Positions 6,497-33,694 of a stretch of 40,493 nt of DNA are shown piece after piece. Source of the stretch: Candidatus Nanopelagicales bacterium (GTDB lineage: Bacteria; Actinomycetota; Actinomycetes; S36-B12). The stretch is taken from the NCBI GenBank assembly GCA_030827125.1, contig JAURFD010000005.1, positions 117,046 through 157,538 on the forward strand, given 5' to 3'. Position 1 is the stretch's first letter; the number at the start of each line of letters is the position of its first letter. A model generated the notes under the pieces. It was given only the letters and a program-made list of their open reading frames with translations, made no database searches and was not told the origin of the DNA. The translations under genes and the position numbers were made by a program.

Positions 6497-6873
6497 GCGA
6501 GGACCACCGGGAGCGATCGCAGGCCGTGGATCATGCGGCCCGCGTTCTGCCGCGCGGGCCCAGCCGTTCGCCAGGCGGCAACGTCGGGGAAGCGCTGCAG
6601 CAGGTGTCGCCATGCGACCTCGGCTTCCATGCGCGCGAGAGCAGCGCCCAGACAGTGGTGCACGCCGAATCCAAAAGCCAGATGTCGCCGGGCATTGTCG
6701 CGGTGGATGTCGAAGGTGTCCGGGTCGGCGAAGACTCGTGGGTCTCGGTTGGCTCCGGCCAGCATGAGCACGAAGGTGCTCCCGCCCTCCAAAGTTGAGC
6801 CGTCCGGCAGCGCAATTGGCGCCAGCGCGTTGCGGAAAGTGTACTGCACCGGCGAGACGTAACGCAGAACTCC
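6493..6873 (-). pseudogene. Cytochrome P450 C-terminal remnant
   Basis: This stretch encodes only the last quarter of a cytochrome P450. The haem-binding loop FGFGVHHCLGAALARMEAE, with its cysteine ligand, and the preceding meander (DPRVFADPDTFDIHRDNARRHLAFG) are intact, as is the C-terminal sheet. The reading frame continues back through VLRYVSPVQYTFRN, which is the segment just after the K-helix ExxR. It then stops at the TAA of the adjacent methyltransferase, directly upstream in the same frame. About 280 N-terminal residues, including the I-helix and the ExxR glutamate, are missing. No convincing start exists; GTG at 6849 is poorly placed. It looks like a deletion derivative and cannot be an active P450. 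Confidence 0.8.
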
Positions 6874-7653
6874 TTAGACGTTCCACCAGACGGCAGCGAG
6901 CCGGCGCGGCATGCCCGCATCTGCTCGCTGCACGGCGGAGGCCACCTCGTCGGCACGATCCACCGGTAGGCACAGGCGGATGCAGGCCGACTCGGCCTGC
7001 GCGCGGGGGTTGAGCGGGATGCGCTGGGTGACGTCGTCGTACTCGACAAGATGCGCGTCGTACCCCGTCTCGCGGATGACGGTCAGAGCATCATCGGCGG
7101 CGGGGGAGACGGGTCGGTCGAGATCCCAGAACTGCTTCCATAGGGGGTTCATCCACGTGAGCGGATGCCGCACGGGAAGTTCGAGGACGACGCGACGGCG
7201 TGCATGCTCGGACAGGGCGCGCACGAAGGCAGGCAGCTCCCACACGTTGTAGGCGACGTGATGGCATACGACGACGTCCGCAATCGGCGTTTGGTCGGCG
7301 ACGTCGGGCCAGTCACCGAGGATGACCTCGCTCGCGACCCCGCGCTTGGCGGCGGCTTCGGCGAAGGCGTCGAGCATGCCCTGCTGGTGGTCAACACCGA
7401 TGAGGAGGCCTGCTGGTGGGACGAGGGCGAGGGCCGCGCGACCGCCCCCGCAGCCGACGTCCAGGACGGAGCCGCCCACGGGGAGTGCCTCGCGCGCGGC
7501 CTGATGTGCAGGGGAGTCGGGGATAGGGCCGTCCGGGGCGAGGAACTGCGCGACGGGGTGGATCCACGGGTCCTGCGGTGCCTGTGCGCGGATCTCGTCG
7601 GGGATGGCCCAGGAGGCCAGGTCGTCACGCCACTTCTGCGCTGCTGTCGTCAT
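6874..7653 (-). CDS. Class I SAM-dependent methyltransferase
   Basis: A 259-residue cytosolic methyltransferase. The SAM-binding motif I is VLDVGCGGGRAAL (about residues 64-76), followed by the acidic end of strand 2 (GVDHQQ). A motif IV-like DVVVCHHVAYNV lies near 130. The C-terminal part carries a hydrophobic WMNPLWKQFWDLDRP segment. The substrate cannot be read from sequence. ATG at 7653 has no ribosome binding site but follows TAGGAT by 6 nt, indicating a leaderless transcript. The stop TAA is fused directly to a P450 remnant in the same frame, so the last codons may themselves derive from the deletion junction. It is divergent from the hydratase gene. Confidence 0.8.
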   Translation of the reverse strand: MTTAAQKWRDDLASWAIPDEIRAQAPQDPWIHPVAQFLAPDGPIPDSPAHQAAREALPVGGSVLDVGCGGGRAALALVPPAGLLIGVDHQQGMLDAFAEAAAKRGVASEVILGDWPDVADQTPIADVVVCHHVAYNVWELPAFVRALSEHARRRVVLELPVRHPLTWMNPLWKQFWDLDRPVSPAADDALTVIRETGYDAHLVEYDDVTQRIPLNPRAQAESACIRLCLPVDRADEVASAVQRADAGMPRRLAAVWWNV

Positions 7654-10320: not shown

Positions 10321-13300
10321 GTGGAGTTTGCCCACCTCCACGTGGCGTCGGCGTATTCGCTGCGTCACGGTGCTTCGATGCCGTCCGAACTCGCCGCGCA
10401 TGCGGCTGAGCATGGTCAGCCACTGCTCGCGCTCACCGATCGTGACGGTGTCTACGGTGCGGTGCGCTTCGTTCAGGCCTGTGCGGCACACGGCATCACT
10501 CCTGTCCTCGGTGTCGACCTAGCCCTCGACCTGCCACACGTTGGTGACGCTCAATCGCCTCTGCCTCCGGCGATTGGAGTGAGCCCGACCCGGGGCGGTG
10601 CGTGGGTGGACCCCCGCCATCCACGCGCCGTCCTCCTTGCCCGTGATCGACGCGGCTGGGCATCGTTATGTCACCTCATCAGTGCGGTGCATTCGACGCG
10701 GGCGACCGAGGGTGGTCACGCCGATGCCCGCGGTGTTGCCGCCACGATGGCGCAGATTGCTGCGCACTCCGATGGACTTATCGCGATGCTCGGCCCCCAC
10801 TCACCGATCCTCGAAGCTCTCGCCGTGCAACGACCCGATCTCGCCGACACTCTTGTCGCGCCCTGGCGCGAGATCTTCGGTGAGGCCCTACGTATCGAGG
10901 TCGTCAGTCACCGCGCTCAGCGCGGCACCCTCGCCACCATCGCCGCCGCCCGCGCCCTCGGCTGGGCCCGCGAACGCGGCATCACCCCCGTCCTCGCCCA
11001 TGCCGTCCGTTACGCCACCCCTCGCCAGGCTCGCGTGGTCGACGTCCTGGACTCTGCTCGACGGCTGGTCCCCCTCGATGAACGACACCGCGACCGGCCC
11101 AATGCCCAGGGCTTCCTCGCTCCCACGCCGTTCATGAGTCAGATCGCCGAGGAGATCGCCCGCGCTGCCGGAACGGGTCGGCGTACCGCCCGAGATCTCC
11201 TCGCCGCCGCCATCCACACCGCCCAGGAGTGCGCACTCACCCCCGCCGATCTCGGCATCGGCGAGATCGCCGTCCCCGAACTTGAGGTCATCGCCCCCTC
11301 AACCACCACCGCGAGTGTGCACTCCCGCGCAGGAAATCGTGGAAATCTTGCGCGGGAGTGCACACTCGGCGAGACAGCGGGGGATGCGCTCTTGCGGGCT
11401 CGCTGCGAGCGGGCGCTGGATCGTTACCGCGGTGCTGAGCGCATCGCCGCCCGCCACCGCCTCGAATCCGAACTCCACACCATCGCCACCCTGCAGTTCG
11501 CCACCTACTTCCTCACCGTCGCCGAGGTCGTCGACCTCACCCGCGCCCTCGGCATCCGGGTCGCCGCACGCGGATCGGGTGCGGGCAGCCTGGTCAACCA
11601 TCTCCTCGGCATCGCCGGCATCGACCCGATGCGCTACGGCCTACTTATGGAGCGCTTCTGCACCCCGCTACGCCGGCAACTTCCCGACATCGACATCGAC
11701 GTCGAGTCCGCACGACGCCTCGAGGTGTACGACGCGATCTTCGAACGCTTCGGTGCGCGAAGAGTTGCCACCGTGTCGATGATGGAGACCTATCGCGTAC
11801 GCCACGCCATCCGCGATGTCGGCGCGGCCCTCGCTCTGCCACCCGGTGAGGTCGATGCCCTCGCCAAGGCCTTCCCGCACATCCGTGCCCGTGATGCGCG
11901 CAACGCCCTGCACGACCTTCCCGAGTTGCGCACCTCAGGCCTCGGGCGCATGACCGAGCGTGGCGAACTCGATCACTTCTGGGAACTTGTCGAGGGCCTC
12001 GACGGCCTACCCCGCCATGTCGCCATGCATCCGTGCGGTGTCCTGCTCTCCGACACCAGCCTGCTCGATCGCACCCCGGTCGAGCCAAGCGGTCAGGGCT
12101 ATCCGATGAGCCAGTTCGACAAGGACGACGTCGAGACCCTCGGCCTGCTCAAACTAGATGTCCTTGGCGTGCGTATGCAATCCGCCCTCGCCCACGCCGT
12201 CGCCGAGGTCGAGCGTGTCGATCATGAACAGATCAATCTCGACGCTGTCCCCCTCGATGATCCGCGCACCTACGGCCTCATCTCCTCCGCACACACCCTG
12301 GGCTGCTTCCAGATCGAGTCACCCGGTCAGCGCGAACTCATCGGCAAGTTCGCACCCGAGACCTTCGACGACATCATCATCGACATCTCGCTCTTCCGGC
12401 CCGGACCGGTGAAGTCCGACATGGTCACGCCCTTTCTCAAAGCCAGGCAGGGCTGGGCCGATCCGATGTACGTCCACGACGACCTGCGCCCGATCCTCGC
12501 GGAGACCCAAGGTGTCGTCGTCTTCCACGAGCAGGTGCTGCGCATCGTCGCGACGATGACCGGCTGCTCCCTCGCCGAAGCTGACGAGACTCGCCGTGCG
12601 ATGGGGTCGCCGGAAGGTCAGGACGACGTACGCGCCTGGTTCTATCCCGCCGCCATCGCGCACGGCTATGACCTGGTGACGGTAGAGAAGGTGTGGGAGG
12701 TGCTGCGCGCCTTCGCCTCCTTCGGCTTCTGCAAGGCACACGCGGCGGCGTTCGCGCTGCCGACCTATCAGTCGGCGTGGTTCAAGGCGCACCATCCGGC
12801 GGCCTTCCTTGCCGGAGTGCTCACCCACGACCCGGGCATGTATCCCAAGCGACTCATCCTCGACGACGCGCGCAGCCTCGGCATCGCGATCCTGCCCCTC
12901 GACGTCAACCGCTCCGGTACGACGTACACCATCGAACGTGTCCTCCCCGGCGATGAGCCACCGCCCTCGATCCTCGGTGCCCCCTCGCGCTCGGCACCGC
13001 CACCGGAGTTGCCCGACGGTCGTGACTACGGCATTCGGCTCTCCCTTGCCGACGTCAAGGGCATGAGCGAGGCCGAGATGGAGCGCATCGTGACGCGCCG
13101 GCCCTACTCCTCGCTGTCGGACTTCTGGCATCGCGCCGCGGTGAGCCAACCGATTGCCGAGCGGCTGGTCCTCGCCGGAGGATTCGACTCGCTGTATTCG
13201 ATCGACACCGCGTACGCCGTCGAGGTCGGTCCGCATCTGCGGCGCCGCAACCGAGTGACCCGACGTGATCTGCTGCTGCAGGTGGCCGACCTCGCTCGCG

Positions 13301-14046
13301 GGGGACCGCGGCGCGCGAAGACCGAGAGCAACGTCGAGCAGTTGAGTTTCGACACTCTGCAGGTCGATGCGCCACCGCCCATCACCGGGCTGCCGGAGAT
13401 GGGGCCGGCCGATCGGGTACGCGCCGAGTTGGAGATCCTCGGCCTCGACGTCAGCCATCACGTGGTCGACTTCTATGCGCCGATGCTCACCGCTCTCGGG
13501 GCGATGCAGCCACCGCTGGTGCGCTCACGTGATCTGCTCAGTTGTCGCTCGCAGGGACAGATCCTCGTCGCGGGCGTCAAGGTGGCGACGCAGACACCGC
13601 CGGTGCGATCGGGTCGTCGCGTCATCTTCGTCACCCTCGATGACGCGACCGGACCGGTCGACGCGACCTTCTTCGACGATGCTCAAGGTCCCTATGCCAG
13701 CACGGTCTTCGCCTCCTGGTTGCTACTGGTGCGTGGTGAGGTACGCCGTACCGGTCCGCGCGGAGTGTCCGTGCGGGCCACCGGTGCCTGGGAACTCGGC
13801 CATGTGCACGCGGTGTGGTCGACCGGTGGCCTCGAGGCGGTCCGCGATCTCCTCGACGACGCGCCGCTGCCGACCGCGCCCACCGGATCGCGTCGGGTGC
13901 TCGTGCATGCCAGTGGGTTCCGCCAGTCGCCGTATGCCGACATCAAGCCCGCCGGCACCGATCCAAGCCGGGTGCCCACCGGCGACGAACACAAGAAGCC
14001 CCCCGCAAAGTTGTGGCACTCCAGCCCCGGGAGCAGCGGATGGTGA
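10321..14046 (+). CDS. dnaE2: Error-prone DNA polymerase DnaE2
   Basis: A 1241-residue C-family polymerase for damage-induced mutagenic synthesis. The PHP domain opens the protein (HLHVASAYSLRHGA, LLALTDRDGVYGAVRF). The polymerase core has the aspartate cluster PDIDIDVES (Asp456/458/460) and a third aspartate in LLKLDVLGVR (Asp613). Other core motifs are GCFQIESPGQRELI, FRPGPVKSDMVTPF and GFCKAHAAAFALPTYQ. A clamp-binding-like QLSFD lies near 1008 and an OB fold follows (about 1075-1160). The start is GTG at 10321 with GGTGAGG about 8 nt upstream; the open frame extends further upstream but only across the HEPN gene. Residues 331-349 are encoded by a 57-nt palindrome that looks like an in-frame insertion. 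Confidence 0.93.
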   Translation: MEFAHLHVASAYSLRHGASMPSELAAHAAEHGQPLLALTDRDGVYGAVRFVQACAAHGITPVLGVDLALDLPHVGDAQSPLPPAIGVSPTRGGAWVDPRHPRAVLLARDRRGWASLCHLISAVHSTRATEGGHADARGVAATMAQIAAHSDGLIAMLGPHSPILEALAVQRPDLADTLVAPWREIFGEALRIEVVSHRAQRGTLATIAAARALGWARERGITPVLAHAVRYATPRQARVVDVLDSARRLVPLDERHRDRPNAQGFLAPTPFMSQIAEEIARAAGTGRRTARDLLAAAIHTAQECALTPADLGIGEIAVPELEVIAPSTTTASVHSRAGNRGNLARECTLGETAGDALLRARCERALDRYRGAERIAARHRLESELHTIATLQFATYFLTVAEVVDLTRALGIRVAARGSGAGSLVNHLLGIAGIDPMRYGLLMERFCTPLRRQLPDIDIDVESARRLEVYDAIFERFGARRVATVSMMETYRVRHAIRDVGAALALPPGEVDALAKAFPHIRARDARNALHDLPELRTSGLGRMTERGELDHFWELVEGLDGLPRHVAMHPCGVLLSDTSLLDRTPVEPSGQGYPMSQFDKDDVETLGLLKLDVLGVRMQSALAHAVAEVERVDHEQINLDAVPLDDPRTYGLISSAHTLGCFQIESPGQRELIGKFAPETFDDIIIDISLFRPGPVKSDMVTPFLKARQGWADPMYVHDDLRPILAETQGVVVFHEQVLRIVATMTGCSLAEADETRRAMGSPEGQDDVRAWFYPAAIAHGYDLVTVEKVWEVLRAFASFGFCKAHAAAFALPTYQSAWFKAHHPAAFLAGVLTHDPGMYPKRLILDDARSLGIAILPLDVNRSGTTYTIERVLPGDEPPPSILGAPSRSAPPPELPDGRDYGIRLSLADVKGMSEAEMERIVTRRPYSSLSDFWHRAAVSQPIAERLVLAGGFDSLYSIDTAYAVEVGPHLRRRNRVTRRDLLLQVADLARGGPRRAKTESNVEQLSFDTLQVDAPPPITGLPEMGPADRVRAELEILGLDVSHHVVDFYAPMLTALGAMQPPLVRSRDLLSCRSQGQILVAGVKVATQTPPVRSGRRVIFVTLDDATGPVDATFFDDAQGPYASTVFASWLLLVRGEVRRTGPRGVSVRATGAWELGHVHAVWSTGGLEAVRDLLDDAPLPTAPTGSRRVLVHASGFRQSPYADIKPAGTDPSRVPTGDEHKKPPAKLWHSSPGSSGW
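11312..11368. repeat. In-frame palindromic element inside dnaE2
   Basis: Two perfect 20-nt inverted arms (11312-11331 and 11349-11368, beginning CGAGTGTGCACTCC) flank a 17-nt loop containing GGAAATC twice. Three more pairs, one a G-T wobble, extend the stem to 23. The whole unit is 57 nt, exactly 19 codons, so the dnaE2 frame is kept. It codes a serine-, arginine- and glycine-rich stretch between the PHP domain and the polymerase core, just after IAVPELEVIAPS and before GDALLRARCERAL. Confidence 0.85.
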
Positions 14047-22422: not shown

Positions 22423-22450
22423 CGTCGCCGTGCGGCGTACCAGCACCCTT

Positions 22451-22503
22451 TGCCGACCGTTGTTGGGGTTTAGTGCCCGTCGACAGCCCAACAACGGACG
22501 GCA
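22451..22503. repeat. Palindromic element, CCGACCGTTGTTG type
   Basis: Arms of 17 nt (22451-22467 and 22487-22503) pair with a single A-A mismatch around a 19-nt loop. The left arm contains CCGACCGTTGTTG and the right CAACAACGGACGG. The same outer sequence, with the same A-A mismatch, recurs at 34256-34307. It lies between convergent genes and might also stop transcription from both sides, but there is no T-run. Confidence 0.7.
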
Positions 22504-22529
22504 CACGGTGAACGTGCGACGTCGCTGCG

Positions 22530-33633: not shown

Positions 33634-33694
33634 GTTGAGTGGCGCGTTGTTGACGGTTTTTGCGGCGAAAACCGTCAACAACCCGCCACTCAAC
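33634..33694. repeat. 61-nt near-perfect palindrome in a divergent promoter region
   Basis: Two 27-nt arms (33634-33660 starting GTTGAGTGGCG, and 33668-33694 ending CGCCACTCAAC) pair with one C-C mismatch around the 7-nt loop TGCGGCG. It sits between two divergent leaderless promoters (33594-33599 and 33714-33719), so it cannot be a terminator for either gene. Confidence 0.85.

Follow-up and report, generated by a model that had tools for sequence, protein, structure and literature searches.

Among the described systems of dispersed palindromes, the REP/REPIN-RAYT systems comprise, as described in PMC3116915 and PMC3733652, short palindromic repeats that are mostly extragenic, with some located in replication or repair genes, that lie near or flank one dedicated gene, and that carry compensatory changes. 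The Rickettsia palindromic elements (RPEs) are grouped with the CGTC repeats and described as lacking a dedicated transposase in PMC3733652, and according to a review (PMC3943268), the target on which the EDxHD enzyme I-Bth0305I forms a dimer is nearly 60 bp long. Here, we report a palindromic element that invites comparison with all three. It is located in a stretch of 40,493 bases (hereafter, the window) of a genome designated G000, and the features of the window are collected in Table 1.

The element resides within a polymerase gene, where an earlier note on this DNA had described perfect 20-nt inverted arms and a loop containing GGAAATC twice, both of which we confirmed. The same note held the arms to be extendable to 23; the stem, read inward, does reach 23 pairs, but only with one G-T pair counted. 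As RNA, the palindrome folds with -50.8 kcal/mol (z -7.8; 0 of 200 shuffles were equally good). Moreover, no other palindrome in the window with a span of 50-66 nt reaches 20/20, and the window gave no Rfam match above the gathering score. As had been claimed, the unit equals 19 codons in the frame of the polymerase gene; it encodes ASVHSRAGNRGNLARECTLG without an in-frame stop, and follows the PHP domain (6-197) and precedes the DNA_pol3_alpha domain (359-617 of P0001). Because the structure model of the DnaE2 fragment is poor (pLDDT 54.6), the "linker" position rests on these domain borders. The host protein is a DNA polymerase III of the alpha type, and its finer name, dnaE2, which we retain from the earlier note, is partly backed by profile matches: the gene scores above the cut-off for the superfamily polc only, and reaches 616 bits against PRK05672 ("error-prone DNA polymerase"), under the cut-off of 939. 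A second, more distant homologue of this polymerase is present in G000 (G000:C3).

Table 1. Features of the window, in positions of the 40,493-base stretch
Feature	Position	Strand	Basis or remark
Palindromic element, 57 bp, in frame in dnaE2	11312..11368	.	Sequence, fold, other copies
Left arm, begins CGAGTGT (common to the genus family)	11312..11331	+	Perfect 20-nt inverted arm
Centre, 17 nt, GGAAATC twice	11332..11348	+	Sequence
Right arm, ends ACACTCG	11349..11368	+	Perfect 20-nt inverted arm
dnaE2 (DNA polymerase III alpha-type), host gene	10321..14046	+	GTG start at 10321 is the author's reading
Second palindrome belonging to the system, TGAGTGGCG type	33634..33694	.	Likeness to a nuclease-flanking palindrome

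The dnaE2 palindrome is a member of a genus-wide family of mostly 57- or 58-bp palindromes with covarying arms. The earlier note had staked its reading on further copies of the arm in the genome, and these are plentiful: blastn located 15 distinct places in G000, including the dnaE2 copy (E 3.3e-4 or better), and a covariance model built from 51 genus copies located at least 34 (up to E 0.026). Since the model searches scored a set number of candidates (150 of 2798 in G000), these copy numbers are lower bounds. At E 0.01, the model matched 8 of 11 genus genomes, with at least 65 strand matches in G000, 40 in G007, 33 each in G003 and G004, 16 in G009, 14 in G002, 9 in G001, and 4 in G006, and had no match in G005, G008, or G010. 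Family matches in G018 and G025 were dropped, as their interior is not palindromic. Searches of 72,556 plasmid records returned four weak matches, and 50,697 phage records returned none.

A pattern search, with seven bases fixed at each end (the CGAGTGT start thus follows from the choice of pattern) and 45-75 nt allowed, found 60 places in nine genomes, of which 43 are 58 nt long, 14 are 57 nt, 2 are 59 nt, and 1 is 56 nt. Across all 60, the cells of the outer 20 arm positions are paired in 89.4%, compared with 75.4% after shuffling (maximum 77.3%), and 172 double changes were counted, compared with 66.9 (maximum 85); without the seven fixed pairs, pairing is 83.7% versus 62.1%. An alignment of 51 of these places (A2) gave 91.5% pairing and 141 double changes, figures that are raised by the omission of nine rows (six of G003, two of G001, and the single one of G010), mostly less symmetric, and among its five measures, the number of pairs showing a double change was reached in 52 of 500 shuffles. 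The correction of quasi-palindromes by template switching is a known mutational process, and it too would yield compensatory changes; were it to equalise the arms here, symmetry and covariation would be uninformative on protein binding. However, self-correction of this kind accounts neither for the tight length range (57 of the 60 places have 57 or 58 nt, with 45-75 allowed) nor for the dispersal of the family, its association with a nuclease gene, and the replacement of copies by the arm type of their own genome, which are described below, and we therefore consider it highly improbable.

To locate the copies relative to genes, 95 were fetched in the genus (the 34 of G000 and part of those from seven other genomes). 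Sixty-one of these lie within 40 nt of the stop codon of a coding-like frame, whereas random positions in the same loci averaged 4.75 and never exceeded 9 in 20 rounds. Such a placement, along with the strong fold, is what one would expect of RNA hairpins kept at gene ends for transcription termination or mRNA stability, but several observations make this quite improbable: (i) with both strands considered, 1 of the 95 copies has a run of at least four T no more than 20 nt away, and the G+C hairpin followed by a T run that characterises intrinsic terminators is thus lacking; (ii) of 162 non-Watson-Crick cells, 35 are G-T, which is close to, and does not clearly exceed, the 1 in 6 that equal substitution rates would give; (iii) two sites are inside genes; (iv) the sequence of the palindrome goes with that of the nuclease; and (v) the flanks of the copies, rich in C on the left and in G on the right, pair with their own partner little better than with swapped ones (147 of 2000 shuffles were as good). 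Intrinsic terminators were not favoured on account of the lacking T runs, and insertion into pre-existing terminator hairpins, which may apply to some copies, gained little from the flank comparison. Both the G-T proportion and the missing T runs are in line with a double-stranded-DNA reading that does without RNA. Separately, palindromes of other sequence were seen just after the dnaE2 stop in titled actinobacterial records (L176, L187, L190, L205, and L218, at ~6760-6955), and some such background palindromes after dnaE2 stops in other families look like ordinary terminators.

Two coding sites were established, namely dnaE2 and an Lhr-like helicase gene, each occupied in G000, G004, and G007, and all six coding copies are 57 nt long. 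An automatic coding test flagged only the three dnaE2 copies, and the helicase copies were recognised from the open frame; a few further fetched copies have an open frame running into the element. The helicase gene is of the DEAD-box type, with its best match to PRK09751, which we take to be Lhr, and its palindrome (L121 1501-1557; G000:C6:40501-40557) has the GSGKT helix and VLYISPLKAL on either side. Each of the 12 other G000 copies with a CGAGTGTGC start measures 58 nt; the dnaE2 copy is one base shorter, and it is by this that the frame is kept.

Comparison with relatives indicates that both coding palindromes have been replaced in place by G000's own types in the G000 lineage. At the dnaE2 site, G000 and its closest relative, G004, share 89-90% identity over the 1-kb flanks, yet G004 carries another arm type there and the 57-mers match at 32 of 57 positions; G004 and G007, with flanks 73-83% identical, match at 45 of 57. 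At the helicase site, where the orthologous copies in G004 and G007 are of another arm type than that of G000, flanks of G000 and G004 are 81-82% identical, and the 57-mers match at 30/57 (G000-G004), 32/57 (G000-G007), and 51/57 (G004-G007). At each site, the G000 arms match another copy of their own genome at 39 of 40 positions, and it is this likeness, combined with the mismatch to relatives despite similar flanks, that argues for replacement.

The element is absent from the dnaE2 genes of G003, G008, and G010, which bears out the earlier description of an inserted, protein-coding palindromic repeat. The clean 57-nt gap proposed as its mark was found in part: a gap exists relative to G003 and G010, but by match lengths the three occupied species are 63, 60, and 72 nt longer, so that the gap of 60-72 nt exceeds the palindrome. 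In the dnaE2 gene of G006 (L034), a right-end stub of the palindrome, ACACTCGGCGC, is present in frame and looks like an in-frame deletion scar. An intergenic insertion of ~140 nt at G003:C29:25216 (L154, compared with L243) contains a palindrome plus further hairpin-like sequence, and is absent from G008, G004, and G000. Neither a target duplication nor an exact empty site was found in the dnaE2 and G003:C29 comparisons, the gaps being longer than the palindrome in both.

Pairs of palindromes ~1 kb apart (G000:C9, G007:C71, G009:C110, and G038:C7) enclose homologous genes. The N-terminal part of the encoded protein matches PADLOC AbiEi profiles in 32 of 32 members, and the C-terminal part matches DUF559 in 30 of 32 (E 0.01). 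Its AF2 model (pLDDT 94.4) aligned in VIA-align with AbiEi (6y8q; Z 14.0, rmsd 5.0, 160 aligned), with the catalytic domain of I-Bth0305I (3r3p; Z 12.4, 2.6 A over 95 residues), with 3hrl (Z 11.2), and with Vsr (1cw0; Z 9.3, 2.5, 98 aligned). Foldseek alone returned 6y8q at E 6.8e-5 and 3r3p only at E 0.017; a sequence profile finds 3hrl (E 0.00015) and 3r3p (E 0.0015). Matches to MenT, ANT, and other structures were taken as shared fold only. Asp220 and Glu231 (D220 and E231) are invariant, and Glu187 and Asp246 (E187 and D246) nearly so, in 32 rows, and these four would be the catalytic residues. From profiles and model together, the partner is thus predicted to be an AbiEi-like domain fused to an EDxHD/Vsr-like (DUF559) endonuclease domain. 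In a full unit, a palindrome is followed, mostly after 80-260 nt, by the gene and then, mostly after 0-45 nt, by another palindrome of the same type. At two loci (L110 501-558 and L090 206-262), the stop of the nuclease frame (..PSVE stop) falls within the 3' palindrome, such that gene end and palindrome overlap.

The second palindrome of the window (19/20), apparently outside genes and between divergent reading frames, equals at 57 of 61 bases a palindrome that flanks a nuclease gene of G000 (G000:C82:25020-25928), and is absent from the 34 covariance-model places of this genome. A further 17/20 palindrome at 22445-22509 of the window, with CCGTTGTTGGG/CCCAACAACGG arms, is perhaps a terminator.

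Nuclease profile matches were found in 10 of 11 genus genomes (E 1e-5), 74 of 166 genomes of the order (1e-10), and 204 of 296 genomes sampled from the class (1e-25). We scanned 51 of the 54 loci obtained from those genus and order matches that came with a locus (the three left out, L276, L284, and L285, are weak) for palindromes with at least 17/20 arm matches and a span of 50-66 within 330 nt, a strong locus being one of 110 bits or more. A palindrome adjoins the gene in 27 of 34 strong loci, on both sides in 16, and in 5 of 17 weaker homologues, on both sides in 1. Seven of the strong loci had first been met via their palindromes (L257-L260, L267, L270, and L287; 6 of the 7 score); among those found by profile alone in the same order, the proportion is 21/27. 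The palindrome density in nuclease flanks is 1.66/kb, versus 0.039/kb across 80 dnaE2 loci taken without selection (29 palindromes over 742,502 bases) and 0.026/kb at 600 nt or more from the gene in the nuclease loci themselves (2 in 77,229). In other orders, under a wider criterion (span 44-90, 450 nt; 0.076 expected per locus), a palindrome was found in 21 of 25 loci and on both sides in 14, with ~1.9 expected; these 25 are the best-scoring loci among the matches listed, and 10 of them come from one family. The expected chance rate for both sets is 0.03-0.08 palindromes per locus.

The palindromes also resemble each other across the gene that they enclose: left and right palindromes of one gene (16/20 or better, n=22) had a mean arm score of 21.0 versus 7.0 (0/5000 shuffles). 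Further, nuclease identity correlated with palindrome similarity (r 0.65, 0/5000, n=49), a correlation that may reflect common descent alone, some loci being close relatives of each other. Spans in other orders range over 46-90 nt, and length is thus not fixed class-wide; at four such loci (L335, L336, L324, and L330), the nuclease-flanking palindromes measure 72-90 nt (GTTGATCTTGGAGTAA type) or 46 nt (CAGAGAAGTGGGGCACC type). At L280 (G005:C237:2567-3349), a weak DUF559 homologue lies between two near-identical 60-nt palindromes of the GGCGATCGCTATGTCATC type, from which the system may reach beyond the strong clade. Nuclease genes and family palindromes do not always coincide. By the criteria above, 7 of 34 strong loci and 4 of 25 in other orders (11/59) have no palindrome; G004 (92% complete) has palindromes and no nuclease match at E 1e-5; the commonest arm type of G000 flanks none of the nucleases found in G000, and a relative of that type flanks one in G009; and G005, G008, and G010 have nuclease matches without a covariance-model match, G005:C179 having a palindrome of another type.

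AbiEi antitoxins bind inverted repeats at their own promoters. Given the AbiEi-like N-terminal part, the palindromes could accordingly be operators only, through which this domain regulates its own gene, with the repeats spread by some transposase or by another process. The 5' palindrome present in 21 of the 27 palindrome-positive strong loci fits this explanation, as do the palindromes of G004, where no nuclease was found. A 3' palindrome, however, is present in 22 of the same 27 loci, and D220 and E231, presumed to belong to the active site, are invariant, although a protein acting solely as a repressor would have no need of them. Moreover, one chromosomal site differs among three genomes, with palindrome-nuclease-palindrome in G009:C110, a palindrome alone in G007:C16, and one palindrome plus a nuclease remnant in G003:C1 (between G009 and G007, the two flanks are 75.7% and 83.9% identical), which indicates that a gene-bearing unit can become a solo palindrome, or the reverse, and which an operator does not explain. 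We consider the operator explanation unlikely on these grounds. The PADLOC AbiEi matches of all members also raise an antiphage device, in which the nuclease is the effector and the palindromes are self-marks or decoys; but flanking on two sides, solo copies, and in-place replacement are unexpected of a defence operon, and this explanation is very unlikely.

The explanation that we consider probable is that the palindromes are dispersed, non-autonomous repeats of a REP-like system whose partner is a nuclease and not a transposase, each palindrome serving as a dimer site and spreading by homing-like repair. Most likely, the nuclease would act as a homodimer, for which the palindrome (mostly 56-66 bp) would be a double-stranded binding site of two-fold symmetry. 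Such binding would explain why the palindrome is symmetric and hardly varies in length, why its arms match and covary, and why arm type goes with nuclease, with no need to invoke RNA. Repair of a break in or close to the palindrome from another copy would lead to in-place replacement, as in dnaE2 and the lhr-like gene, and would occasionally copy the palindrome to new sites, mostly just downstream of genes; for new insertion at palindrome-free sites, the proposed mechanism offers no detailed account. Tolerance of the dnaE2 copy may stem from its length of 57 nt, the absence of an in-frame stop, and its position between two domains, PHP and polymerase.

Several observations sit uneasily with this homing-like explanation. 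Toxicity would be expected of a dimer with 34 cutting sites in its own genome, unless it cuts rarely or only under certain conditions. The mismatches in occurrence noted above also count against it, namely palindromes without a nuclease match in G004, the commonest G000 arm type without a nuclease in its own genome, nuclease matches without a family match in G005, G008, and G010, and the 11 of 59 loci without a palindrome, as do the 46-90 nt spans in other orders and the lack of a target duplication or exact empty site in the comparisons made. Further, the likeness to 3r3p is only E 0.017 by Foldseek alone, and the similarity correlation may be common descent. We advance only tentatively a wider reading that might apply to the whole class: a family of nuclease-driven homing palindromes, in which an AbiEi-EDxHD homodimer would cut a symmetric site of ~60 bp, and repair would homogenise and spread copies without a transposase, even within genes if the frame holds, with many arm types, each having its own nuclease clade.

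The system resembles REPIN-RAYT in having dispersed palindromes that flank a partner gene, but the partner is another enzyme, an AbiEi-EDxHD nuclease instead of a Y1 HUH transposase. Indeed, the Y1 transposase domain PF01797 was found in 0 of 11 genus genomes (E 0.1), with control matches in 8 of 14, and a RAYT partner was rejected for the genus on this basis; nor does GTAG stand at the repeat foot of any model-found copy, these starting with related ends. REP/REPIN, the best-studied palindromic repeats of bacteria, go with a Y1 transposase, whereas here three lines of evidence (position, the left-right sequence match, and joint inheritance) tie an enzyme of a different class to the palindromes.

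RPEs are about 100-150 nt long. The earlier note had likened the element to them, and this analogy holds for the tolerated in-frame insertion in protein genes and there only: lineage and sequence differ, the repeat is not a specially coding element, as most fetched copies lie near gene ends, and a partner gene, which the comparison did not foresee, is present. Moreover, the CGTC end given for RPEs in PMC3733652 is absent here, the dnaE2 element ending in CGAGTGT and ACACTCG. The earlier reading was thus right on an in-frame inserted repeat with many copies and is partly supported, being too narrow otherwise. MITEs are likewise short, non-autonomous repeats that share their ends with a gene-bearing element; here, however, the whole unit is one palindrome and no transposase is known, and no target duplication was seen between occupied and empty sites, which differ by more than the palindrome.

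With I-Bth0305I, the partner protein shares a catalytic domain, as judged from sequence and model, and the dimer target of that enzyme, as given in the review (PMC3943268), approximates the palindrome in length; with Vsr, it shares the catalytic fold. It differs from both in its AbiEi-like N-terminal domain, the two flanking palindromes, and the dispersed copies, and its cleavage activity is a prediction. Homing endonucleases cut a target and are copied into it, and by analogy the in-place replacement would fit such a process. Among the matches listed in open-access PMC literature, none links DUF559 or EDxHD nucleases to dispersed palindromes, and the system may thus be undescribed. The comparison suggests a testable function for DUF559/AbiEi-like genes of unknown role, and sets beside the known systems palindromes whose replacement in place has kept the frame of two genes, one for a DNA polymerase and one for a helicase.
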